A stretch of DNA of 36,469 nt from an uncultured Rhodospirillaceae bacterium (GTDB lineage Bacteria; Pseudomonadota; Alphaproteobacteria; Rhodospirillales; Magnetospirillaceae): positions 1 to 36,469 of the forward strand of contig CAIYCT010000368.1 in the NCBI GenBank assembly GCA_903924765.1. The letters are read 5' to 3'. This document shows, in pieces, positions 6,515 through 36,161 of this stretch (the first letter of the stretch is position 1; every line of letters begins with the position of its first letter). The position numbers and the translations under genes are program-made. A model generated the notes under the pieces. That model was not told the origin of the DNA, did not search any database, and saw only the letters and a program-made list of their open reading frames with translations.

Positions 6515-6971
6515 GCTCTATGTGGACGCCGATGCCTGCCCCGTGCGCGAGGAAGTGTTTCGTGTCGCCACCCGGCTTGAGTTGCTGGTGCATGTGGTCA
6601 GCAACGGCTCGCGCCCCATCCGTCCGCCCGGTCTTCCCAACGTGACCATGGCGCTGGTGGCCGAAGGCGCCGATGCCGCCGACGATTGGATCGCCGAACG
6701 CATCACCGCCAACGACATCTGCCTGACCAACGATATTCCCCTGGCCGCCCGCTGTCTGGCCAAAAGCGCCGGAGCCCTGGCCTTCAACGGCAAAGTCTGG
6801 AGCCAGGCCAATATCGGCAACGCCCTAGCCGGCCGCGAACTCAGCCGCCACCTGCGCGAGCTGGGCATGGATAAAGGCGGCGGGCCGAGCTTTTCCAAGA
6901 CTGACAGGTCCAAGTTCCTCAGCGCGCTGGATACGCTGGCGATGGCGAAAATCCGAGCGGCGGGGGCTTAG
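6507..6971 (+). CDS. yaiI: YaiI/YqxD family protein (UPF0178)
   Basis: A 154-aa member of the DUF188/UPF0178 family of small PIN-like proteins whose biochemical role is not established. Hallmarks are the N-terminal YVDADACPVREEVFRVA, the SNGSRPI segment, the acidic pair in EGADAADDWIAE, and LTNDIPLAARCL followed by NGKVWSQANIG. The acidic residues are arranged as in PIN-like nucleases, but nuclease activity is inference only. The start overlaps the 3' end of cobN by 8 bp, so the two are probably co-transcribed; I see no evident functional link to cobalamin. Length is normal for the family (about 150 aa). Confidence 0.9.
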   Translation: MVELYVDADACPVREEVFRVATRLELLVHVVSNGSRPIRPPGLPNVTMALVAEGADAADDWIAERITANDICLTNDIPLAARCLAKSAGALAFNGKVWSQANIGNALAGRELSRHLRELGMDKGGGPSFSKTDRSKFLSALDTLAMAKIRAAGA

Positions 6972-6995
6972 GGGGAGATGAGGCAAGCATCTTCC

Positions 6996-7511
6996 TTATC
7001 CGATATTCTGATAAACGATGAACAAGCCTCCCAATCCGATGGCGGAAAATACCCATCTGAAACACCGTGAATAACTAAAGTGTCCAGTATGAATTGGCCA
7101 TAAAGGAAGGTCTTTATGTTTTTGATCGTCAACGGAAAATAACTGCAGGACATGCGCCTTGCCGTTCTCGGACTTCAATCCATATTGGTCGTCAAGGTAT
7201 TTTAAAGCATCCTGAGAAATCTCTATCAGTTGCTTGGTGCGAAGATCAAGTTTGTAAAATATAAATGAAATAAAAAATAAGGAAAATCCAAGTCCTATTT
7301 TTAGTGATTCTGCTTCCTTGATCTCTGGTTTAGAGCCTATAGCAATCAATCCGCCAATCAATGCGGCAGACAGTGTTATATAAAACTGGAAAGTCTTGAG
7401 TCTTTGCGCTGCATAGAGATCGAAGTAGTTCCATGCATAGTCTCTGAAAGCTTCGTCCAACTTTGAACGGCTGTCGCTGCAAGTCGGCAATGGGGGGTCT
7501 GGTGTGGCCAT
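6996..7511 (-). CDS. Hypothetical membrane protein with two adjacent TM helices and a C-terminal TM
   Basis: 171 aa, not assigned to a named family. Hydrophobic spans lie at about residues 42-60, 70-88 and 152-169, with a soluble loop of about 60 residues between the second and third. The N-terminal WNYFDLYAAQRLKTFQFYIT and the post-TM FYKLDLRTKQLIE resemble, from memory, a widespread uncharacterised group of two-TM proteins with an FWKLDxR-like motif; this is a resemblance, not an assignment. It starts 33 bp downstream of the 372-aa membrane-protein gene, so the two are probably one transcript. Base composition is clearly more AT-rich than the flanking cobN and TCA genes, which suggests acquisition. 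It is convergent with the yaiI-family gene, 24 bp apart. Confidence 0.75.
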   Translation of the reverse strand: MATPDPPLPTCSDSRSKLDEAFRDYAWNYFDLYAAQRLKTFQFYITLSAALIGGLIAIGSKPEIKEAESLKIGLGFSLFFISFIFYKLDLRTKQLIEISQDALKYLDDQYGLKSENGKAHVLQLFSVDDQKHKDLPLWPIHTGHFSYSRCFRWVFSAIGLGGLFIVYQNIG

Positions 7512-7544
7512 AGTTCCTCGGTGAACAGGAGTGAGTGAGCGTCC

Positions 7545-8663
7545 TTACATTCCATCTTCCCAGAGGCAATTCAGGAAGATCACATGCGGATCTTCGCCAA
7601 TTTCCTCGAAGCCGCGTTTAAGGCCGTTTTCATCCAGCTTTACGGCGGCTGCGATGGCTTTGAATGCCGCATCTGCTGGATTTTTCTGGCCAGCTTTGTT
7701 GCTTCTCATGTCATCGTAAAGATTCGCAACCGCCATGGCCCCACGAATGCCAAAAGGACGTGTGTCCTTGAGTTTGTCTCCCAGATAAATCCAGGCCAAA
7801 GCCTGATCAACTAGGTCGATGATGGTAGAAAAGGTGTAATTGGTACGCATGGATAGTTGGATCGGATCGCAATAGGCCAATTGGGCGATGGTGGTGATGT
7901 CGGCGGCCTGTAGGCGGTCGGCGGTAAGTGCATCCACTCCGTCCAGCAAGGTAACTTGATCCGTGGTTTCCGTGCTGGAGTTGGGCGACAAATCCAGGCC
8001 TAGTTTTTTGGTGGCCCAGCGTTGCAAAATGATCTGTACAGTTTGCAGAGGAAAAGCGCCGATGATGAAGCAGACCAAGAGAACGGAACTTTTGTCAGAG
8101 ACGATTGATCCTACGGCGTACCCTACTGGCACAGCAGCTATCAAGCGGAGTGTAGCGTTTAATAACAAGGCAGGCGGTAACGTGTATTTGCTGGAATCAG
8201 CAATCAAGGCGGCGACGACCCAGATATAGGCTCCGGTAAGAGCCGCGATGGCGCGGTCAGGCAAGACGAAAAAGTTCTTTGTTGACGGATAGCTGGCTGG
8301 GTCCAAGTGGTTTAGGGCGGTCTCGGCAATCAACAGTGTCAAAGCCACCAGGGTCAAGGTTAGAATGCTAATTGGCGCAATCAGCCGATAGCGCCCGTAT
8401 CGAAAATGATAAAGCTCGGAGAAAGCTTGGGCAACATTGTTCGGGGCGGTATTTTCTTTCTGAAAGGTAGCGAAGTATTTGGCCTTGGCTGTATTTCCCA
8501 GACTCCCAAAAATATCGTTGCGCTTGATCTCCCAGCCTCTTCTCCAGAAGGCTAGAATGGGTTGGATGGGGATATAGGTCATAATCGCCGCCGCAAAAAC
8601 AACGGGCAATGGAATTCCACTGATTTGCAAGGATAGCAAATTGCTTATATCGTATGATGGCAT
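7545..8663 (-). CDS. Hypothetical polytopic membrane protein with C-terminal helix-hairpin-helix-like segment
   Basis: 372 aa, family not recognised. About five hydrophobic spans are visible (residues 16-38, 93-113, 136-156, 164-187 and 192-212), followed by a soluble C-terminal half. Residues about 236-275 (VTLLDGVDALTADRLQAADI then TTIAQLAYCDP) look like the helix-hairpin-helix-type repeat in which a protein reads 'L.GV......L...GI.T...L'. That fold often binds DNA or other proteins, but here the assignment is tentative. First gene of a probable two-gene operon with the 171-aa membrane protein downstream. Composition is AT-richer than neighbours. The ATG at 8663 begins MPSYDISNLL; no convincing alternative start precedes it. 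A membrane-anchored sensor or effector role would be speculation. Confidence 0.75.
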   Translation of the reverse strand: MPSYDISNLLSLQISGIPLPVVFAAAIMTYIPIQPILAFWRRGWEIKRNDIFGSLGNTAKAKYFATFQKENTAPNNVAQAFSELYHFRYGRYRLIAPISILTLTLVALTLLIAETALNHLDPASYPSTKNFFVLPDRAIAALTGAYIWVVAALIADSSKYTLPPALLLNATLRLIAAVPVGYAVGSIVSDKSSVLLVCFIIGAFPLQTVQIILQRWATKKLGLDLSPNSSTETTDQVTLLDGVDALTADRLQAADITTIAQLAYCDPIQLSMRTNYTFSTIIDLVDQALAWIYLGDKLKDTRPFGIRGAMAVANLYDDMRSNKAGQKNPADAAFKAIAAAVKLDENGLKRGFEEIGEDPHVIFLNCLWEDGM

Positions 8664-10893: not shown

Positions 10894-12108
10894 TTACAGA
10901 TCCAGCAGCAGACGAGCCGGATCTTCGATGGATTCTTTGACGCGCACCAGGAAGCTGACCGCCTCGCGGCCATCGATGATGCGATGGTCGTAGGACAGGG
11001 CCAGATACATCAGCGGGCGGGCCTTGAAGCTGCCGTCGGGCATGACCACCGGGCGCTGCTGAATTTTGTGCAGACCCAGGATGGCCGATTGCGGCGGGTT
11101 CAAGATGGGGGTGGACAACAGCGAACCATAGACGCCACCGTTCGAGATGGTGAAGGTGCCGCCTTGCAAATCTTCCATGGCCAGTTTGCCATCGCGGGCG
11201 CGCTTGCCCAAATCGCCAATGGTCTTTTCCACGCCGGCGAAAGACAGTTGGTCGGCGTTGCGAACGACGGGGACCACCAAGCCTTGGGGCGTGCCAACGG
11301 CGACACCGATGTCATAGTACTTCTTGTAGACCAGATCCTCGCCGTCGATTTCGGCGTTGACGGCGGGCCATTCCTTCAAGCCCGCGATCACGGCCTTGAC
11401 GAAAAAGGACAGGAAACCCAAACGGACGCCATGCTTCTTTTCGAAGCTGTCTTTGTATTCGGCGCGCAGGTCATTGAGCGCGGTCATGTCCACTTCGTTG
11501 AAGGTGGTCAACATGGCGGCGGTGTTTTGCGCGTCCTTCAGACGTTCGGCGATGCGCTTGCGCAGACGGGTCATGCGTACGCGGTCTTCCAACTCGGCGC
11601 GGGCGCGGGGGCCAGACGGAGCGGCGGGTTTGGCAGCGGGCTTCGCAGGAGCGCTCAGCACGTCGCCCTTGGTGACGCGACCATCTTTTCCGGTGCCGGT
11701 CAGGCCCGACGTATCGATGCCTGCGTCAGCGGCCACTTTGCGGGCGGCGGGCAGAACGATGGGCGATCCGGCGGCTGGTTTGGCGGCGGCAACCGGGGCG
11801 GGCGCAGCGGCAGGAGCCGGGGCGGCAGCGGGAGCTGCGGCTTTGGCCGGAGCTGCGGCGACACCCTTGCCGTCCGCCGAGATCGTGCCCAGGATCGAAC
11901 CCACTTCGACGGTAGCGCCGGTTTCGGCGACGATGCCGGACAACACGCCAGCCGACGGAGAGGGAACCTCCACTGTCACCTTGTCGGTTTCCAGTTCGAC
12001 CAAAGGTTCGTCTACTTTGATGGCGTCGCCCACATTCTTCAGCCACTTGGCGATGGTGGCTTCGCTAACCGATTCGCCCAGTGCGGGCACTTTAATTTCA
12101 ATGCTCAT
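10894..12108 (-). CDS. sucB: Dihydrolipoyllysine-residue succinyltransferase (E2 of 2-oxoglutarate dehydrogenase)
   Basis: E2 core of the 2-oxoglutarate dehydrogenase complex: it takes the succinyl group from E1 onto its lipoyl arm and passes it to CoA. 404 aa, normal length. One lipoyl domain spans residues 1-75 with the modified lysine K43 in [11 protein letters not shown]. An Ala/Pro-rich linker follows at about 76-110, then the E3/E1-binding domain near 117-150 ([19 protein letters not shown]) and the catalytic domain to the end. The active-site His375 and Asp379 are in [12 protein letters not shown]. The start at 12108 ([17 protein letters not shown]) is 15 bp after the sucA stop, so the two are in one operon. 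The motif set favours succinyltransferase over the pyruvate E2. Confidence 0.96.
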
Positions 12109-29860: not shown

Positions 29861-29899
29861 GGCCTCGTGGTGGAATTGGTAGACACACACGACTTAAAA
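29861..29899 (+). pseudogene. 5' half of host tRNA-Leu(UAA), interrupted by the integrated element
   Basis: The segment gives acceptor strand GGCCTCG, linker TG, D arm GTGGAATTGGTAGACAC, the 5' anticodon stem CACGA and the whole loop CTTAAAA, then diverges into element DNA (GCAAGTC...). Joined to 36116-36161 it makes an 85-nt tRNA-Leu(UAA) with 7-bp acceptor, 5-bp anticodon stem CACGA/TCGTG, long variable arm, T arm GCGGG-TTCGAGT-CCCGC, discriminator A and encoded CCA. The element end does not restore the 3' half, so the gene is broken as it stands. The half presumably still has its promoter and would be transcribed toward the integrase. Confidence 0.9.
29891..29899 (+). repeat. attL core (GACTTAAAA)
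   Basis: Left copy of the 9-bp core shared with 36107-36115. In the uninterrupted tRNA the 7-bp loop CTTAAAA is flanked by the inverted repeat CACGA/TCGTG. That is the usual tyrosine-recombinase core layout, with a 7-bp overlap between two inverted enzyme-binding arms. Inside the element the core continues as GCAAGTC, giving a partial inverted repeat GACTT/AAGTC. Confidence 0.85.
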
Positions 29900-29923
29900 G
29901 CAAGTCATTTTATTTCGTGCTAG

Positions 29924-29952
29924 TTGATTTTTCCCAATACATTCAGTACAAT
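29924..29952 (+). promoter_or_regulatory. Sigma70-type promoter of the integrase gene
   Basis: TTGATT (29924-29929), 17-bp spacer, TACAAT (29947-29952), about 98 bp before the integrase ATG. The long leader contains the TTACACA repeats that may be integrase arm sites, so the integrase could repress its own gene. Read-through from the broken tRNA promoter is also possible. Confidence 0.6.
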
Positions 29953-29990
29953 ATGCCATGTTTTGGATGTGGTTGAGCCTCAAAAAGCCC

Positions 29991-30020
29991 TTACACATCT
30001 CTTACACAAAAACACACATT
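29991..30020 (+). promoter_or_regulatory. Candidate integrase arm-type sites, left end
   Basis: TTACACA occurs at 29991-29997 and 30002-30008, followed by an ACACACATT-like copy. The right end has TTACACAT at 36041-36048 running into TACACATTT, about 60 bp inside attR. Short direct repeats near both ends of an element fit arm-binding sites of tyrosine integrases; this is pattern-based only. Confidence 0.4.
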
Positions 30021-30049
30021 TGGCCGGTTCTCCGGCAGAAGAGTGAAAC

Positions 30050-31315
30050 ATGGCAGATCACGAACTGATGGGCGGAAGGCTCCACGTTTATAAACGCGAC
30101 AACAGCCGTTATTGGCAGTGCTCAACCTTCCTTGGCGGAAAAAATCTTCGCGTCAGCACCAAAGAAGAAAGCCTCGCCCAAGCGAAGGACTTCGCCGAGG
30201 ATTGGTATCTTGAACTCAAGGGCAAGCACCGTCGCTGCGAGTTGAAAACCGGCAAGACCTTCAAGGAGGCTTCCGAACAGTTCCTCCGCGAATATGAAAT
30301 CATCACCGAAGGCCAACGCAGCCCTGAATATGTCAAAGCCCACGGCGCTCGCCTTCGGGTTCACCTGCTGCCGTTCTTCGGCGAGATGTACCTGTCGGAC
30401 ATCACGCCAGGGCAGATTCAGGAATACCGTATCCATCGCCGTCAGAAGGCGATGGAGGAGCGCGGTGCGCCACCCGCGCGAAACACCATGCACCAGGAAA
30501 TGGTCACATTGCGGCAGACATTGAAAACCGCCAACCGCCACGGCTGGCTTCAATATATGCCGGATATGTCCGAACCCTATAAGGCTTCCGGCAAAATCTC
30601 GCACCGTGCATGGTTTTCGCCGGAGGAATATAAGAAGCTGTACGAGGCCACGCGCCGTCGGGTTCAGAACCCGCCCAAGGCGCGGTGGCAATGGGCGTGC
30701 GAACAGCTCCATGATTATGTGCTGTTCGCGGCCAACACGGGGCTTCGTCCCGACGAAGCCTACCGCCTTGAGTTTCGTGACGTGAGCATCGTCGAGGACG
30801 AAGCCACGAAGCAGACCATTCTCGAAATCGAAGTGCGTGGCAAGCGCGGGGTCGGCTATTGCAAAAGCACGACCGGCGCGGTCAAGCCGTTTGAGCGGTT
30901 GCTCAAGCGGAAGCGTCCCGATCTCTCCGAGAACGGGCGCAGCATCCGCTTGGACGCCAACGCGCAGGGCGACGAAAAGAAGCCCTTGCGCCTGCCGCAA
31001 CCCAAAGACCTGATCTTCCCGTTAAGCCATCACGAATTGTTCAACACCATCCTCGATGAGGAGGGGTTGAAATTCGACCGCGAAGGCAGCCGCCGCACGG
31101 CCTACAGCCTGCGGCATACCTATATCTGCCTTCGCTTGATGGAAGGTGCCGACATTTATCAGATTGCCAAAAACTGCCGCACCAGCGTCGAGATGATCGA
31201 GAAATACTATGCCTCGCACATCAAGACGAGACTCGATGCTGCTGCAATCAATGTCCGCCGCGCCCGTCCGAAGAAGAAAGGTGCGGAAAACAGCAGAAAT
31301 GAAGAGGAAGAATAA
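30050..31315 (+). CDS. Tyrosine-type site-specific integrase
   Basis: 421-aa phage-integrase-family recombinase, presumably catalysing insertion into and excision from the tRNA-Leu anticodon loop. The N-terminal part (about 10-60) looks like an arm-binding domain and about 70-170 is a SAM-like core-binding domain (FKEASEQFLREYEI...). The catalytic domain has the first arginine R233 in ANTGLRPDEAYRL, a lysine candidate at 265 or 272, R355-H356 in YSLRHTYICLRL, and the nucleophile in MIEKYYASH, probably Tyr387. The first box-II position is Tyr instead of His and the usual GH before the nucleophile reads NCRTS. Both substitutions are familiar in integrases of the YSLRHTY type, so I expect it to be active. 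The ATG at 30050 begins MADHELMGGRLHVYKRD. It lies 150 bp from attL, reading inward. Confidence 0.93.
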   Translation: MADHELMGGRLHVYKRDNSRYWQCSTFLGGKNLRVSTKEESLAQAKDFAEDWYLELKGKHRRCELKTGKTFKEASEQFLREYEIITEGQRSPEYVKAHGARLRVHLLPFFGEMYLSDITPGQIQEYRIHRRQKAMEERGAPPARNTMHQEMVTLRQTLKTANRHGWLQYMPDMSEPYKASGKISHRAWFSPEEYKKLYEATRRRVQNPPKARWQWACEQLHDYVLFAANTGLRPDEAYRLEFRDVSIVEDEATKQTILEIEVRGKRGVGYCKSTTGAVKPFERLLKRKRPDLSENGRSIRLDANAQGDEKKPLRLPQPKDLIFPLSHHELFNTILDEEGLKFDREGSRRTAYSLRHTYICLRLMEGADIYQIAKNCRTSVEMIEKYYASHIKTRLDAAAINVRRARPKKKGAENSRNEEEE

Positions 31316-31324
31316 CATTTTAGC

Positions 31325-31353
31325 TTGGCGGGCGGTTCATCGCCCGCTATAGG
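31325..31353 (+). promoter_or_regulatory. Promoter of the intron-bearing tRNA-Leu, with embedded hairpin
   Basis: TTGGCG (31325-31330), 17-bp spacer and TATAGG (31348-31353) place a start near 31360, just before the tRNA at 31366. The spacer overlaps a perfect hairpin GCGGGCG/CGCCCGC (31328-31347), which may terminate integrase transcription. Its arms are identical in sequence to the two strands of the tRNA acceptor stem, so the region may be a duplicated tRNA end. Confidence 0.55.
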
Positions 31354-31365
31354 TTGGGGCTTCAA

Positions 31366-31658
31366 GCGGGCGTGGCGAAACTGGTAGACGCAACGGACTT
31401 GAACAAAAATTGAGTGCTCCTTGGGAAACCTCGGATGCAGAACTGCTCAAATTCGGGGAAACCTCGCAAGTGGCAATCCCGAGCCAAGCCTGGAAACGGG
31501 AAGGTGTAGAGACTAGACGGGCAGCACCTAACGCCGACAGGCCATGGTGAAGGTATAGTCCAGACCACGAACGCGATAGCGGCGGCGAAAGTCGAAGTGG
31601 TACGAAAATCCGTAGGGCCGTAAGGCCTGTGCCGGTTCGATTCCGGCCGCCCGCACCA
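31366..31658 (+). tRNA. tRNA-Leu(UAA) carried by the element, split by a group I intron
   Basis: Exon 1 is 31366-31400 and exon 2 is 31605-31658; the spliced tRNA is 89 nt with encoded CCA. The acceptor stem is GCGGGCG/CGCCCGC, the D arm GCGAAACTGGTAGACGC, the anticodon stem ACGGA/TCCGT with loop CTTAAAA (anticodon TAA), the variable arm contains GGCC-GTAA-GGCC, and the T arm is GCCGG-TTCGATT-CCGGC. The discriminator is A, as leucyl-tRNA synthetase requires. It differs clearly from the host tRNA-Leu(UAA) it accompanies, so it is a separate lineage and not a duplicated half. The intron lies between U34 and A35 of the anticodon. Same strand as the integrase, 50 bp after its stop, with its own promoter. 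Confidence 0.93.
31401..31604 (+). ncRNA. Group I intron (IC3-like) in tRNA-Leu(UAA)
   Basis: 204-nt intron with no ORF. The 5' exon ends in U and the intron ends in G, as group I splicing requires. The internal guide GAGU (31412-31415) can pair with exon ACUU, placing a U-G wobble at the 5' splice site. Conserved core pieces are present in order: AATTCGGGGAAACC (P4/P5 side), GGCAATCCCGAGCCAAGCC, GGAAGGTGTAGAGACTAGAC (P3/P7 region) and TATAGTCCAGA (P7 3' strand, pairing with GACUA). GAAA loops occur in the P2 and P9 regions. These match, from memory, the tRNA-Ile intron of Azoarcus (205 nt) and the tRNA-Leu(UAA) introns of cyanobacteria, both subgroup IC3. Self-splicing is expected but not shown. 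Confidence 0.92.
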
Positions 31659-31674
31659 TACAATCATAACCAGT

Positions 31675-31815
31675 ACCCTCTCTGTCCGGCGATGCCGGAC
31701 ATCGGTGGCATCTGCACCCTTGGCGAGCGTCACCCGTTCCAGAACTTCGGCGATAATTTCCAGCGAGTCCGCCTGCGGTTTGCGGAGTGACAGGCGTTGA
31801 GAGATTGTGCGGAGG
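31675..31815 (-). pseudogene. Fragment of the N-terminus of a DEAD/DEAH (type III restriction-like) helicase
   Basis: Just downstream of the SNF2 gene on the same strand, one frame reads LRTISQRLSLRKPQADSLEI then IAEVLERVTLAKGAD. This resembles the N-terminal 'LSLRxPQ..SLEIL..V' block of large DEAD/DEAH helicases that accompany SNF2 helicases in defence operons. The frame then runs into the tRNA-Leu gene on the opposite strand without any helicase motif. No good start codon precedes it. I read it as what is left of a second helicase gene after a deletion that brought the tRNA next to it. Assignment is from remembered sequence character. Confidence 0.4.
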
Positions 31816-31821
31816 GGGCGG

Positions 31822-34041
31822 TTAGGATGCTAGATCAAAACGGATGTAGTGGGATGTGTCGAAAGTTCGGTCTTTTGCCGTGTTGACCAGTTGCGTAGCA
31901 AGGTTGCCTTCCGAGAGCCGGAAGAATTGCCATCCCTCCCGGTCAGCCAACGGCCATTCGGTGGTGTAGGTGATACCGCCATAATCGAAGCGTCGTCCGT
32001 CATCGTCATGGAATTGCACTTCGGGCAATTCGCCTTTGGCGACCATCAGGAGGCAACGGTCAAAATCCGTAAGGTATTGGCGGATTTCTCCGTCACGGGT
32101 TTTCAGTTGGCGGACGACTTTTTCATCGACGTTCTCCAGCAACCGTTTCCGCGCATCCAAAACCTGTTCGCTGATTTGCGATTGCAGGTCGGCTTGCAAC
32201 AGATCGAATGCGGCATCAATCTCGGTCTCGGAACGACCCTTTTGAACGATTTCCAGAATGCGGCGTTCGATATCAACGCCGCGTTCGATAACGCCCAGCA
32301 CTTCATCGCTTGCGCCAAACACGCCTTGGAAGAGATTGAATTTCTCACCAAGAAGCTGGAACACGCGCTGTTCGGCGCGGTTCTTGAGATTCAGGAAGTT
32401 GACCACCGTAACGTCGATTTTCTGACCATAACGATGGCAACGGCCAATACGCTGTTCGACCCGTTGAGGATTCCACGGCAGGTCAAAATTGATGAGCAAC
32501 GAGCAGAACTGAAGGTTGATACCTTCGGCACCGGATTCCGTGGCGATCAGAATGGACTTGCGTTCACGGAACGCTTCAACCACAGCCGCTTTCATATCGG
32601 CGGTCTTTGACCCCGATATCGCATCGGTTCCTTGATGCCGATTGATCCAGTCCCGATAGAGGGCTTGGCTGGAGGGATCGGCGTTCTGACCATTGAGCAA
32701 AACAATATCGTCGCCGTAGCCATTGGCACTCAGCAAATCGGCAAGATACCGTTGGGTACGAACGGACTCGGTGAAAATGACGGCTTTCCGTTGCCCGCCT
32801 TTCGAGACGATTTCGTCCAATACATTGGGCAGCGAGTTGACCAGTTTGTCGCCTTTGCTGTTGGCCCCAATCCTGAGAGCCAATTCCCTGAAACCCTCAA
32901 GTTCCTTGATTTCAGCGGCGAGCTTTTCTGGGTCAACGGGCGCATCGTCCTCTGACTGTTCGTCCTCGTCCATTTCCTCGGCATCTTCGTCGAGGGCATC
33001 ATAGTCAGTCAGGGTATCAGCATCAGGTCGTTGTTTGGATTTCAGGCGTTCGATGATCTTTGCCAGTGTTTCGGCGACTGCGAAGGTGGATGACCCCAAG
33101 ATTTTGCGGACGACCAGAACCACCAAAGCGTTGGTTCTTTCGCCGAACGCGATGGTATTTTCACGCTGCAAGAAGGCAGAGACACCGTTATAGAGTGCGA
33201 CCTCTTCATCGGCAGGGTCGAACTGGATCGTAAACGGATAGCGTTCGGTGTATTTGATGAGGCCAGCCTGTTGCACCTGACGGCGCAGGGTGCGCTTGCA
33301 AATCGACTCCAACCGCTTTCTCAGGAACAACACGCCGTTCTTGTTTGTGCCGGTGGCATAGGTCGAACGGAATGACGCTTCATCGCCGAAGAAATGTTCG
33401 TCGATGACGGACACCAGCCCATACAGTTCCATCAGGGAGTTTTGCAACGGCGTTGCCGTCAGCAGCACCTTGAAGTATGGCCGCGTGGCATCACGCAGAG
33501 CCTTTGCCCGAACCGACGCTCCCTTCTTATAGACGTTCCGCAGACGGTGGGCTTCGTCATAAATCACCAAGCTCCATTGAACGCGCTGGATTTCATCGGC
33601 CTTGCGGGCTGCAAATTCATAGGAGGTAATGATAATTTTATCCGGTTGATCGAAAGGGCGTTTTTGACCGGCCTTGACGGCGGCGTTATAGCCTTTGCTC
33701 TCCAAGATCACCGACGGCAGCGAAAATTTTTCCTGAAGCTCTTGGCTCCACTGCTTTCGCAGGGAGGCAGGCACGATCAGAATGATGCGCCGCTTCCGTT
33801 CTGCCCACCGTTGGGCAATGACCAGACTGGCTTCAATGGTTTTTCCCAAGCCAACTTCGTCGGCCAACACCACGCCCTTGGACAGTGGGGAAGCCAGTGC
33901 AAATAATGCGGCATCGACTTGGTGCGGATTCATATCGACGCGGGCGGTGGAAAGCGATTGGGCAAAGGCGTCCTCGCCCAATCCCTCTAATGTGATCTTG
34001 TGGGCAAAAAAGGTGCTTTGATGCGGCGTTACCGTCGTCAT
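31822..34041 (-). CDS. SNF2-family DEAD-like helicase, probably C-terminally truncated
   Basis: 739-aa superfamily 2 ATPase of the SNF2/RapA type found in phage-defence and restriction loci. Motif I is LADEVGLGKTIEAS (Lys67), motif II DEAH at 162-165 (VIYDEAHRLRN), motif III LLTATPLQNS, and the C-terminal lobe has FTESVRTQRYLADLL, TESGAEGINLQFC and motif VI QRIGRCHRYGQ. An acidic linker (residues about 350-375, rich in Asp/Glu) splits the two lobes. Relatives I recall run to about 950 aa; here the chain stops at SHYIRFDLAS, followed by a remnant of another helicase gene, so 200 or so C-terminal residues are probably deleted. Both ATPase lobes are intact. No methyltransferase or nuclease partner is nearby, so the original system is likely non-functional. 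Confidence 0.88.
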   Translation of the reverse strand: MTTVTPHQSTFFAHKITLEGLGEDAFAQSLSTARVDMNPHQVDAALFALASPLSKGVVLADEVGLGKTIEASLVIAQRWAERKRRIILIVPASLRKQWSQELQEKFSLPSVILESKGYNAAVKAGQKRPFDQPDKIIITSYEFAARKADEIQRVQWSLVIYDEAHRLRNVYKKGASVRAKALRDATRPYFKVLLTATPLQNSLMELYGLVSVIDEHFFGDEASFRSTYATGTNKNGVLFLRKRLESICKRTLRRQVQQAGLIKYTERYPFTIQFDPADEEVALYNGVSAFLQRENTIAFGERTNALVVLVVRKILGSSTFAVAETLAKIIERLKSKQRPDADTLTDYDALDEDAEEMDEDEQSEDDAPVDPEKLAAEIKELEGFRELALRIGANSKGDKLVNSLPNVLDEIVSKGGQRKAVIFTESVRTQRYLADLLSANGYGDDIVLLNGQNADPSSQALYRDWINRHQGTDAISGSKTADMKAAVVEAFRERKSILIATESGAEGINLQFCSLLINFDLPWNPQRVEQRIGRCHRYGQKIDVTVVNFLNLKNRAEQRVFQLLGEKFNLFQGVFGASDEVLGVIERGVDIERRILEIVQKGRSETEIDAAFDLLQADLQSQISEQVLDARKRLLENVDEKVVRQLKTRDGEIRQYLTDFDRCLLMVAKGELPEVQFHDDDGRRFDYGGITYTTEWPLADREGWQFFRLSEGNLATQLVNTAKDRTFDTSHYIRFDLAS

Positions 34042-34322
34042 TCCGTCCGTTCTATCTGACAGGCTGTTTTAGGCACTGTTACTCCCCCAAGGCCACGTCC
34101 GAATAGGTCAATTTACTATCTGCTATCCTCTTAGCAGAGCGCAATAAATCCAGCTAGAAAGAACTCTCAAATTGCGATGAATATCGCCATGATTCAATTA
34201 TAAGATATGGTCTCCGCCCGCCCGTCGCCTTCGCCCTGGTTGTAGGGGGCACCACCTTTTTTTTCGCTGCGCGAGGTCAGCGTGGCCTTGGCAAGCCTGG
34301 GAAGTCAAGACCGCAGCCGTCG
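34042..34322. other. Intergenic region between AbiEii and the SNF2 helicase gene
   Basis: 281 bp without a supported gene. The part nearest the helicase is AT-rich and should hold its minus-strand promoter, but I cannot pick one -35/-10 pair with confidence. The part near abiEii is GC-richer, with an eight-T run at 34257-34264 (plus strand). Confidence 0.4.
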
Positions 34323-35279
34323 TCAGCTTGCGGTGCTATGTTTTAGCCGGTTAGCGAGGGATAATATGGTGCCGAGTGCTTCGGCAAAATCAAACGCCTC
34401 GCCGTAAACCATGTCCTGTCGGAAATCCGTATAGCGCTGGAGGTAGTCGGGATCGCTTTGCAGACCGGCCACCGCACGAAGCGTTTCAGCGATTGGGTTG
34501 TCCCGATAGGCAGGGAATTGGTGCCCGTAGGCTTCGACATCGGCGAGCATGATTGTCTGTGCCAAGGCGATGACTTCGGCAGGGTCGTAGTGTTCACGGA
34601 TGACGTGCAGGTCATAGATATGGCGCACAAGTGTCTGGTCGCGTGGCCCACCGGCACCCGATTGTTCGGCTCCGGCGCGGCGGGTCAAGGCGACGAACTT
34701 TTCGGCAGCCGTCTCGGTAATGGACACGCATTCAATGGCGGGAACTTCCGGCTGTTGTTTGAGGGCTTCGGCCATATATGAAATGACCGACCGTTCAACC
34801 GAGGCGCGGCGGAGCGGCCAAACCGCCGTCTCAATCTGAATCTCCGGTCGTAAAGCACCGACACCCGAGGTGATGGGTGAGTAAGGGAGCCGATAAATGG
34901 TGTGGCGACTGGCATTACCCGACTCGCGTTGCGCCGGATTTTTGGGATCGAAGGCAAAGCCAGCATTGAGCAGGGCTTCCGTGATCTTGTCGCGCAAGGC
35001 GCGAAAGGCCGAACGTGGTGTGTTTTCATCGGCAATAATTTTTAGGTCAATGTCTTCCGACATCCGGTGAATGAGCCGGTGCGCGCGGCTTAAGGCCGTG
35101 CCGCCGCCAAACACCAACCGAAAGGGTGATGCATCAATTTTCGTGATGGCGGCGAGAGCCTTGACGACGTACCAATCCTTTTCGACCAGGGCAGCACTCG
35201 GCAGCCCGAAATGGTTCCGAACGTCGTTGAGGTCGTTGATGTTCAGATTATCAGGCAAGCCGAAGATCCACATTGCCAT
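34323..35279 (-). CDS. abiEii: AbiEii/AbiGii-type nucleotidyltransferase toxin
   Basis: 318-aa toxin of an AbiE type IV toxin-antitoxin system; AbiEii proteins are DNA polymerase beta-like nucleotidyltransferases that halt growth, and characterised relatives modify tRNA acceptor ends. The signature FGGGTALSRAHRLIHRMSED then IDLK lies at residues 57-80 and carries the GG/S and the D-x-D metal pair. A conserved lysine segment follows at TETAAEKFVALTRR and an RHIYDLHVI block near residue 230. The gene overlaps the AbiEi antitoxin gene by 29 bp. ATGs at 35279 and 35273 are both possible starts. A tRNA-modifying toxin beside a carried tRNA gene is notable, but a functional link is speculation. Confidence 0.9.
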   Translation of the reverse strand: MAMWIFGLPDNLNINDLNDVRNHFGLPSAALVEKDWYVVKALAAITKIDASPFRLVFGGGTALSRAHRLIHRMSEDIDLKIIADENTPRSAFRALRDKITEALLNAGFAFDPKNPAQRESGNASRHTIYRLPYSPITSGVGALRPEIQIETAVWPLRRASVERSVISYMAEALKQQPEVPAIECVSITETAAEKFVALTRRAGAEQSGAGGPRDQTLVRHIYDLHVIREHYDPAEVIALAQTIMLADVEAYGHQFPAYRDNPIAETLRAVAGLQSDPDYLQRYTDFRQDMVYGEAFDFAEALGTILSLANRLKHSTAS

Positions 35280-35667
35280 CGCGCAGTCGCCGTGAGAAAC
35301 GGCTGCCGACGATTCTTACGGCAGGGTTGACGGGGATTTGCGTTGAGCGGCCTTCGTTGTACGCCCGTTGCGCTTCCGTCGGCTCCCACTTCACGCCAAG
35401 TTTGTTGAGGACTTCGCGGGCTGCGCCATCCAGCCCATTGGGGCTGTCGAGAACCGCTTCCCCCGACAAGCGAGAAATCCGGGCACGGCCATAGACGCCA
35501 TAGCCCAGCCGCACCAACCGCTTGTCGCGGACAAGACCGCGCAAGGCGCGCAGTACTTGGTCTTCGCCGCTTAAGCTGGCAAACTCGCGCGGCAGGAAGA
35601 CATTCTCATCCTTCCGGCTGGCGATAACCGCTTCAATCCTCTCGCGCAATGTCTTCGCTTTTGGCAT
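35251..35667 (-). CDS. abiEi: AbiEi-like antitoxin (DUF6088-type)
   Basis: 138-aa partner of the AbiEii toxin. The N-terminal region (MPKAKTLRERIEAVIASRKD, then LRALRGLVRDKRLVRLGYGV at about 40-59) looks like the winged-helix domain of AbiEi/DUF6088 antitoxins, which repress their own operon, and the C-terminal part carries the basic tail that would meet the toxin. It is shorter than the two-domain AbiEi of lactococcal plasmids (about 200 aa) but normal for this subgroup. GTAAGG lies 7 nt before the ATG at 35667. First gene of the operon, with promoter and direct-repeat operator just upstream. Confidence 0.85.
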   Translation of the reverse strand: MPKAKTLRERIEAVIASRKDENVFLPREFASLSGEDQVLRALRGLVRDKRLVRLGYGVYGRARISRLSGEAVLDSPNGLDGAAREVLNKLGVKWEPTEAQRAYNEGRSTQIPVNPAVRIVGSRFSRRLRDGNVDLRLA

Positions 35668-35682
35668 GGTTGCACCTTACAG

Positions 35683-35717
35683 AAACCCGACACCAGTATA
35701 TGCAAAAACCCGACACC
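35683..35717 (-). promoter_or_regulatory. Two 12-bp direct repeats overlapping the abiE promoter (likely AbiEi operator)
   Basis: GGTGTCGGGTTT (minus strand) occurs exactly at 35717-35706, inside the -35/-10 spacer, and at 35694-35683, just after the -10. The repeats are 23 bp apart, about two helical turns, so bound proteins would sit on one face and cover the promoter. This fits negative autoregulation by AbiEi, which is known for the family, although other AbiE operators are usually described as inverted repeats. Confidence 0.65.
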
Positions 35718-35723
35718 TATCAA
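35695..35723 (-). promoter_or_regulatory. Sigma70-type promoter of the abiE operon
   Basis: On the minus strand TTGATA (35723-35718), exact 17-bp spacer, then TATACT (35700-35695), about 28 bp before the AbiEi start. Both hexamers are near consensus. Confidence 0.8.
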
Positions 35724-35749
35724 GAATAATTGTATATTATTCAATGGCC

Positions 35750-36106
35750 TATAAAAACATAATCTATCTAATTGAGATGTATGGGCAATCTGCCCAAGAG
35801 CGACCTGTCGCCTTCGCTTCGGTCGCGCCATCGGACGCCAGTCTTTTTGCCGCATGGGCGATGCGGCTTCAACAGATGCGACATCCCTTCGGCTGTCGCA
35901 GGAGAGAGAAAAGGAGGCTGCCAACTTGCGGCCATTCGATTCCCGTGCTACCCCGTTGGGACATCAAAAATGGGCAAGCGCATGGGGCGCACGGCTCTGG
36001 CAAGCCAGGGAGGGAAAAATGCGGAAATTTTCACAGAAATTTACACATACACATTTTTTAGACGAGATTAGTTAATAAATACAGTAAGATAGCAGTAGAC
36101 TGGCCG
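35750..36106. other. Non-coding right end of the element
   Basis: About 350 bp without a convincing gene. Short open frames here have unlikely, Arg/Cys-rich products. The middle is GC-rich with several small inverted repeats (for example GCATGGGCGATGCGG and GCGACATCCC...CTGTCGC). The last 80 bp is AT-rich and holds TTACACAT (36041-36048), a candidate integrase arm site. Confidence 0.4.
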
Positions 36107-36115
36107 GACTTAAAA
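36107..36115 (+). repeat. attR core (GACTTAAAA)
   Basis: Right copy of the 9-bp core. On the element side the sequence reads GGCCG before the core, so the joined circle would carry CGGACTTAAAAGCAAG. Eleven bases of this (CGGACTTAAAA) equal the exon junction of the element's own spliced tRNA-Leu. Confidence 0.85.
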
Positions 36116-36161
36116 TCGTGCGATTTCGATCATGCGGGTTCGAGTCCCGCCGAGGCCACCA
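36107..36161 (+). pseudogene. 3' half of host tRNA-Leu(UAA)
   Basis: After the core, TCGTG completes the anticodon stem. It is followed by the variable arm, T arm GCGGG-TTCGAGT-CCCGC, acceptor strand CGAGGCC, A and CCA. The acceptor strand pairs with GGCCTCG at 29861-29867, more than 6 kb away. The bases before the core (GTAGACTGGCCG) do not resemble a tRNA 5' half, so this copy cannot make a tRNA alone. Confidence 0.9.

Follow-up and report, generated by a model that had tools for sequence, protein, structure and literature searches.

A non-restoring integrative element in a host tRNA-Leu(UAA) gene, with a tRNA-Leu(UAA) of its own that is split by a group I intron

How can a bacterium do without an intact tRNA-Leu(UAA) gene once a mobile element has entered the anticodon loop and rebuilt the gene at neither end? 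This question is raised by a contig of 36,469 nucleotides (CAIYCT010000368.1; its full length is called the window) from an uncultured Rhodospirillaceae bacterium, whose assembly (GCA_903924765.1) comprises 3.75 Mb in 542 contigs and is 97.2% complete. We hold with considerable confidence that a 6.2-kb integrative element has entered the host tRNA-Leu(UAA) gene at the anticodon loop and left it unrestored, and that a tRNA-Leu(UAA) carried by the element and split by a group I intron (hereafter, the spare) likely decodes UUA. The replacement of the host gene by the spare is well supported; what the intron contributes is a separate question, to which we return.

The two flanks of the element belong to one gene. 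When joined, they form an 85-nt tRNA-Leu(UAA) to which the left part is 100% identical over nucleotides 1-39 and the right part over nucleotides 31-85 (Table 1), and the two halves pair with each other in 7/7 positions of the acceptor stem and 5/5 of the anticodon stem. Both matches share nine nucleotides, GACTTAAAA, which cover the anticodon loop and two stem bases and form the attachment (att) core. Likeness to tRNA ends immediately after the left core, and element sequence directly precedes the right one. In the entire window, ARAGORN run without introns reports no intact tRNA, and the junctions attL and attR are both without a functional tRNA; allowing introns adds none at either end of the element. 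Instead of the classical target-restoring layout, in which a regenerated gene is accompanied by a displaced fragment, the window thus contains two halves and no rebuilt tRNA.

The uninterrupted site can be seen in relatives. A PPK2 gene lies 84 bp before the left tRNA half in the window. Among six relatives with an intact UAA gene for which the surrounding stretch was fetched, four of the same family (G002, G003, G004 and G007) have a PPK2 gene, 65-66% identical to that of the window, at distances of ~2.2 kb, 420 bp, 570 bp and 60 bp, respectively, from an intact tRNA-Leu(UAA). The fetched stretches of the remaining two (G018 and G029) contain no PPK2.

The spare is found 50 bp behind the tyrosine integrase gene. 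With introns allowed, ARAGORN identifies one tRNA-Leu(TAA), interrupted after nucleotide 35 by an intron of 204 nt and spanning 31366-31658 in total. Its sequence differs from that of the host gene, although the isotype is the one that the element disrupts; the spliced form, 89 nt in length, folds into a cloverleaf with a variable arm and CCA. The Rfam model for group I introns (RF00028) is covered entirely and scores 57.4 bits, compared with a gathering score of 50, and the intron terminates in ...ACG, with the U of the 5' exon paired to a G. We aligned 27 intron-bearing tRNAs (22 of the 49 intron spares in our table of loci, plus L231 and L233-L236). A single fold fits all 27, with 77 pairs, 36 of which exhibit compensatory change; exon 1 pairs with the internal guide of the intron, and the splice-site U.G is present in 27/27. 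Judged by its conserved core and fold, the intron is of the group I type, and self-splicing, followed by charging of the spliced tRNA, is predicted. An earlier note on this DNA, made from the letters alone, had described halves that reconstruct perfectly, an insertion that restores neither end, and a second, distinct tRNA-Leu with the same anticodon and a group I intron. All of this stands, and the comparison with element-free relatives that it suggested yielded the empty sites just described.

In UAA genes, the intron is inserted after U34. In two CAA genes (L075 and the remnant L232/L044), it follows U33, which is within the core too. The long-known intron of cyanobacterial tRNA-Leu(UAA) genes is likewise inserted after U34. 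Because ARAGORN misplaces the intron in some spares and then names them as Phe, Ser or Arg, anticodons were read from exon ends instead. As a separate observation, group I introns seemingly in non-Leu tRNA genes of the order were seen by eye at L045, L048, L049, L053, L055, L056, L058, L059 and L061-L064.

Relatives of the integrase repeat this arrangement. Among 7999 candidates scored, 7166 were homologues at E ≤ 0.001, and among genomes sampled at one per species at least 546 relatives were confirmed, 80 of which were kept. The integrase occurs (centres included) in 7/149 genomes around the host, 23/391 of the Bradyrhizobium family and 32/299 of the Edaphobacter family. Members of the integrase family are assigned by record titles and tree labels, mostly of metagenome-assembled genomes, to Pseudomonadota, Acidobacteriota, Planctomycetota and Binatota. 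We classed 127 integrase loci, having first removed 22 duplicate places; a further duplicate (L274, a copy of L107) and two near-copies of each other (L121 and L123) are still counted among them. The target is a broken tRNA-Leu(UAA) at 49 loci and a broken tRNA-Leu(CAA) at 38, whereas 11 adjoin an intact tRNA-Met, -Arg or -Phe; another 13, taken as tandem or free forms, have a core-like stretch before the integrase and lack a tRNA half (L260 and L289 with doubt), and 16 are unclassed. Where parsed, the core precedes the integrase match by 127-244 bp, and the spare is mostly 28-313 bp behind the integrase.

At UAA-breaking loci, the spare has an intron in 43 of 49 cases and is an intronless UAA gene in two (L247 and L259); two further loci reach a contig end. 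Pelagibacterium luteolum, Granulicella sp. L46 and Edaphobacter lichenicola M8US30 are examples of isolates that share the window's layout. Because it recurs in 43 of 49 loci, this layout is not due to chance, and the link between the integrase family and intron-bearing tRNA-Leu that the earlier note had proposed to look for does exist. The 38 CAA loci include 16 with an intronless CAA spare, two with an intron spare (L075 with CAA and L287 with UAA) and two at a contig end. Where both anticodons of a pair are readable, that of the spare equals that of the target in 55 of 56 cases. The sole mismatch, L287 (G781), is a CAA-breaking element with an intron-split tRNA-Leu(UAA), and its contig ends soon after. 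When the redundancy of L274 and L121/L123 is removed, 125 loci remain, with 54/55 anticodons matching and 19/23 intronless spares changed in the sense described below.

Certain loci show unusual arrangements. A 5' tRNA fragment, of 42 nt in L081 (2217-2460) and 19 nt in L139 (9746-9891), precedes an intact tRNA-Met or tRNA-Arg by the integrase, perhaps representing a tandem or replaced target. L103 has a tRNA-Leu(UAA) 3' half (5044) before the integrase and an intronless, pair-flipped UAA spare (6582-7940), an order that points to a tandem array or to permutation of the contig. In L102, from Planctomycetaceae, a tRNA-Leu(UAG) (11253-11337) lies behind an integrase relative, and no target was found.

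Spares with and without an intron differ in the state of the att core. Both exon ends are readable in 42 of the 49 intron spares, and all 42 would rebuild the core only on splicing; 41 join to GACTTAAAATC and L075 joins to GACTCAAAATC, which are the cores of the UAA and CAA targets. In contrast, 20 of the 24 intronless spares beside an integrase differ from their own target within the first nine core bases. The changes are of four kinds: a flipped pair 30-40 (6), a flipped pair 31-39 (4), A31 to G (3) and C32 to U (7), and the flipped-pair kinds may also include a change at base 32. When loci are collapsed into clusters of integrases with 75% identity, 16 intron clusters stand against 13 changed and three unchanged intronless clusters. 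Native UAA matches read GACTTAAAATC in 55/60 cases. By hand count, the 125 native CAA matches in 149 genomes read GACTCAAAATC in about 92 cases and GATTCAAAATC in 27, with four flipped pairs and two others.

These data lead us to propose the following mechanism. Judging from the junctions, the integrase would recombine the ~9-nt attP core with the identical core in the tRNA gene. The host gene is left as two halves, neither of which is a tRNA, and the cell would survive on the spare. The intron splits the spare DNA within the att core (CTT^AAAA), which would make the integrase blind to the spare as an attB, and splicing would restore the same anticodon loop at the RNA level. The integration system would thereby include the intron, as a camouflage of an att site that is concealed in DNA and kept in RNA. 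We infer this hiding role from the complementary core pattern, the two insertion points and the conserved exon ends, and we put its probability at about one half. That elements without an intron would meet the same difficulty with altered base pairs in the anticodon stem or loop is, within the hiding proposal, a similarly balanced judgment.

Several observations weigh against a hiding role. The target core is unchanged in the intronless spares L077/L078, L089 and L259 and in the CAA gene inside L106, so evasion of the core by all intronless spares, a stronger idea, had to be given up. The change of C32 to U is weak evidence alone, because about 27 of 125 native CAA genes read GATTCAAAATC; flipped pairs are stronger. 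Also, the intron might be a mere passenger: group I introns would enter tRNA anticodon loops unaided, and the element could have picked up an intron-bearing tRNA-Leu, in which case the replacement would be real and the intron would have no role in integration. Group I introns are indeed matched in 23/149 genomes (own included), many of them in tRNA genes besides Leu, and the cyanobacterial tRNA-Leu(UAA) intron has long been known (PMC4476775). Seven intron-split tRNA-Leu loci of relatives were viewed more widely, on stretches of 4-14 kb; no integrase relative is present among their ORFs of at least 110 aa. In G064 (L232/L044), tRNA-Leu(CAA) halves only 1.5 kb apart enclose an intron-split tRNA-Leu(CAA) and a 280-aa ORF (L232 5326-6168), and in G054 and G105 an intron-split tRNA-Leu(UAA) follows a broken tRNA-Leu(UAA) half at a distance of 186 and 144 bp, respectively. 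The other four (L233, L234, L236 and L237, in G030, G090, G127 and G104) contain no half and no integrase within the stretch viewed. They may be old remnants or native intron-bearing genes, and the latter would weaken the link between intron and element. Against a passenger stand a core that is perfect in 42/42 readable intron spares and changed in 20/24 intronless ones, and the introns of L075 and L232/L044, which are inserted elsewhere (after U33) and still within the core. We therefore regard a passive intron as a tentative alternative, somewhat doubtful but to be taken seriously.

A different explanation concerns the spare itself, which could be an ordinary extra tRNA in a host that does not depend on it, another UAA gene being located outside the assembly. 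We searched the own genome by tRNA family and by DNA. The 33 tRNA matches include Leu anticodons CAA, UAG, GAG and CAG and no second UAA gene; since Phe, Asn, Cys, Trp and other tRNAs are equally unmatched in this 542-contig assembly, the missing second UAA gene is weak evidence by itself, and such a gene could simply be unassembled. Moreover, 6 of 30 genomes with UAA elements (G151, G161, G168, G169, G173 and G177) have a further intact, intronless UAA gene; the tRNA pattern behind these counts misses some tRNAs, which makes absences weak. Two UAA-breaking loci, L122 and L146, have no spare within the searched 1.7 kb, and G168, with another intact UAA gene, is the genome of L122. Likewise, a search within 1.7 kb of the integrase gave no spare at 18 of the 38 CAA loci. 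In this group of 18, an intact tRNA-Leu(CAA) is present at the left end of L263 and inside the L106 element, there ~5 kb from the right half, and the genomes of L115, L116 and L124 also contain one. The incomplete assembly, the further UAA genes and the broken targets with no spare nearby count against the main reading.

On the other side, anticodons match in 55/56 pairs, the UAA pattern has one match per genome in the 60/149 relatives in which it was found, and the spare is retained in the 1.5-kb remnant of G064, where no integrase was found; retention of this kind is what dependence predicts. (A cross-table of intact UAA genes against the integrase in the 149 genomes was dropped, because the pattern, with 55/149 matches when strict and 60/149 when looser, was too insensitive for an integrase present in 7/149.) Counts of UUA codons in 14 host ORFs of the window gave one to four in seven ORFs and none in seven. 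We conclude that an independent host with a dispensable spare is unlikely. The spare likely takes over UUA decoding, host dependence on it is likely, and an "addiction" of the cell to the element would be a plausible consequence.

Other members of the integrase family do restore their target. Four relatives were followed toward the far end. In G230 (integrase 61% identical), tRNA-Met is intact and a 47-nt 3' copy is 40 kb away; in G070 (67%), the same is true for tRNA-Phe, with a 47-nt 3' copy 26 kb away. Both are classical restoring arrangements. G409 (58%; tRNA-Met) has an exact 18-nt 3' copy, diverging thereafter, 45 kb away, and in G187 a far-end copy was not found across 80 kb. Because kin at tRNA-Met and tRNA-Phe restore the gene and kin at tRNA-Leu do not, both solutions exist within one integrase family. 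That the window holds a decayed classical island, which lost its restoring 3' part and has the spare as a chance neighbor, is very improbable: restoring kin, the intact tRNA-Leu(CAA) at the left end of L263 and one in the L116 genome where the right end is expected might be cited in its favor, but the non-restoring layout recurs at tRNA-Leu across the family, with the spare mostly at its usual short distance behind the integrase.

Right ends were found for many elements. A core followed by a 3' half was detected in 19/30 UAA-element genomes and in 10/30 CAA-element genomes (L188, one of the ten, was scored as a tRNA by ARAGORN). Of the 19 UAA right halves, 17 were scored against the left half; the acceptor stem pairs 7/7 in all 17, and the anticodon stem pairs at 4-5 of 5 positions in 16. 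In the exception, G164, the script took a shifted match (2 of 5), and the listed match pairs 5 of 5 by eye. Where both halves are on one contig, element sizes are 6.2 kb (window), 11.2 kb (L094), 15.0 kb (L113), 33.2 kb (L105), 46.9 kb (L085, Bradyrhizobium sp. CCGUVB4N) and 63.2 kb (L087). The right end of the L076 element has two tRNA-Leu(UAA) 3' halves, 128 bp apart (G153:C4:358379 and 358507; L154 and L173).

The remaining content of the element is listed in Table 1. We infer that the CTTACACA and TTACACAT motifs are arm-type integrase sites; similar TTACACA repeats precede the integrases of several relatives. No phage gene is recognized among the three annotated cargo ORFs, a helicase and an AbiE-like pair, and at E ≤ 1e-20 the integrase has no relative in 50,697 phage records. 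The idea that the window element is a temperate phage was accordingly set aside. A collection of viral sequences contains four predicted viral contigs with integrase relatives, and some elements may be prophages or of phage origin. In two of these contigs, L146 and L147, the integrase lies in a broken tRNA-Leu(UAA) or (CAA), and L147 has a CAA spare. Integrase relatives also occur in 14 plasmid records, such as the alphaproteobacterial plasmids NZ_CP017076.1, CP041206.1 and NZ_AP018829.1 (54-58%). Sampling of the cargo of other elements revealed restriction-modification genes, a coupling protein, and DndB-like and Fic proteins.

Table 1. Features of the element and its junctions, with positions in the window
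Feature	Position	Strand	Evidence
5' part of broken host tRNA-Leu(UAA), ending in att core (left junction)	29861..29899	+	100% to nt 1-39 of joined gene; no intact tRNA called
Left copy of 9-nt att core GACTTAAAA, anticodon loop	29891..29899	+	Sequence; overlap of two matches
Two CTTACACA repeats (at 29990 and 30001), putative arm-type integrase sites	29990..30008	+	Motif positions
Tyrosine integrase, 421 aa	30050..31315	+	Pfam PF14659/PF13102
Spare tRNA-Leu(UAA), exon 1, ending at U34	31366..31400	+	ARAGORN with introns
Group I intron, 204 nt, starting after U34 and ending in G	31401..31604	+	Rfam RF00028; consensus structure of 27 intron tRNAs
Spare tRNA-Leu(UAA), exon 2 with CCA	31605..31658	+	ARAGORN with introns; spliced cloverleaf
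Cargo: SNF2-type helicase related to DISARM DrmD	31822..34041	-	PF00176/PF00271; PADLOC DrmD 619.8 bits; under NCBIfam cut-off
Cargo: AbiEii-like toxin, type IV toxin-antitoxin pair	34323..35279	-	PF08843; PADLOC AbiEii
Cargo: AbiEi-like antitoxin (DUF6088)	35251..35667	-	PF19570; PADLOC AbiEi
TTACACAT, putative arm-type integrase site, right end	36041..36048	+	Motif position
3' part of broken host tRNA-Leu(UAA) with CCA, starting with right att core copy (36107-36115)	36107..36161	+	100% to nt 31-85

These results carry tRNA-dependent integration beyond actinophages, into a large integrase family that occurs in four phyla. They also have a practical side, since tRNA scans that are blind to introns miss the spare, and the spare may be the sole UUA-reading tRNA of such genomes. 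The small remnants with a spare suggest a route by which a mobile element comes to own an essential host gene. A group I intron, usually seen as a passenger, gains a testable function, and if the hiding role is true, an essential tRNA in several bacterial phyla has been replaced by a mobile copy that is made whole only by splicing.

These findings can be compared with known systems. The dependence of lysogeny on a phage-encoded tRNA was defined in 2024 as tRNA-dependent lysogeny of actinobacteriophages (Fionnbharth, LeBron and Gaia) in PMC10865867, where plasmid and phage mutants show that the spare is needed, and where the Lactobacillus prophage Lj965 is noted too. The earlier note knew of no description of the arrangement; the replacement principle had in fact already been published, on the basis of experiment, for actinophages. 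An attB within a host tRNA gene, a short core, a tyrosine integrase with PF14659 and an element-encoded tRNA of the disrupted isotype, which mark tRNA-dependent integration, are all present in the window, and restoring and non-restoring kin share one integrase family in both settings. However, the known carriers are temperate phages of Actinobacteria whose need for the spare was demonstrated experimentally, whereas the present elements are in other phyla and are known from their sequences. The window element also differs in having no recognized phage gene and in having an intron across the core of its spare. An intron in a spare is not mentioned in the accessible text of PMC10865867, the main text of which uses the word "intron" once. 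A substituted tRNA in Sinorhizobium is mentioned in PMC11476347, and PMC12429752 describes prophages at tRNA-Leu(UAA) that restore it. Our literature search, in which subscription journals were thinly covered, found no paper in which a group I intron and a replacement tRNA come together on a mobile element. As far as that search reaches, the intron-split spare and its spread in elements beyond known phages are new. The earlier note gave the intron no role; its location across the att core is a more novel part than the replacement.

In other respects the system resembles established ones. Islands cataloged by Islander (PMC4383910) have a tyrosine integrase beside a tRNA att site, and crossover in the anticodon loop, as here, is a known sub-site; those islands restore the target, unlike the window element. 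The cyanobacterial group I intron (PMC4476775) is in the same tRNA-Leu(UAA) gene, but that gene is chromosomal, and the likeness considered here is that of the gene. According to a hypothesis of Randau and Soell, formulated for Archaea (cited in PMC4390854 and PMC3293823), the introns of tRNA genes shield these genes against mobile elements, and two alternative solutions within one integrase family provide this idea with a natural experiment. A related case is an archaeal tRNA-Thr gene with an intron within its att site, for which it was considered that an element-borne intron could benefit the element by excluding others (PMC3293823). That intron is spliced by proteins and resides in the target gene of one population, whereas the introns described here are of a self-splicing type and reside in a separate spare gene on dozens of bacterial elements.

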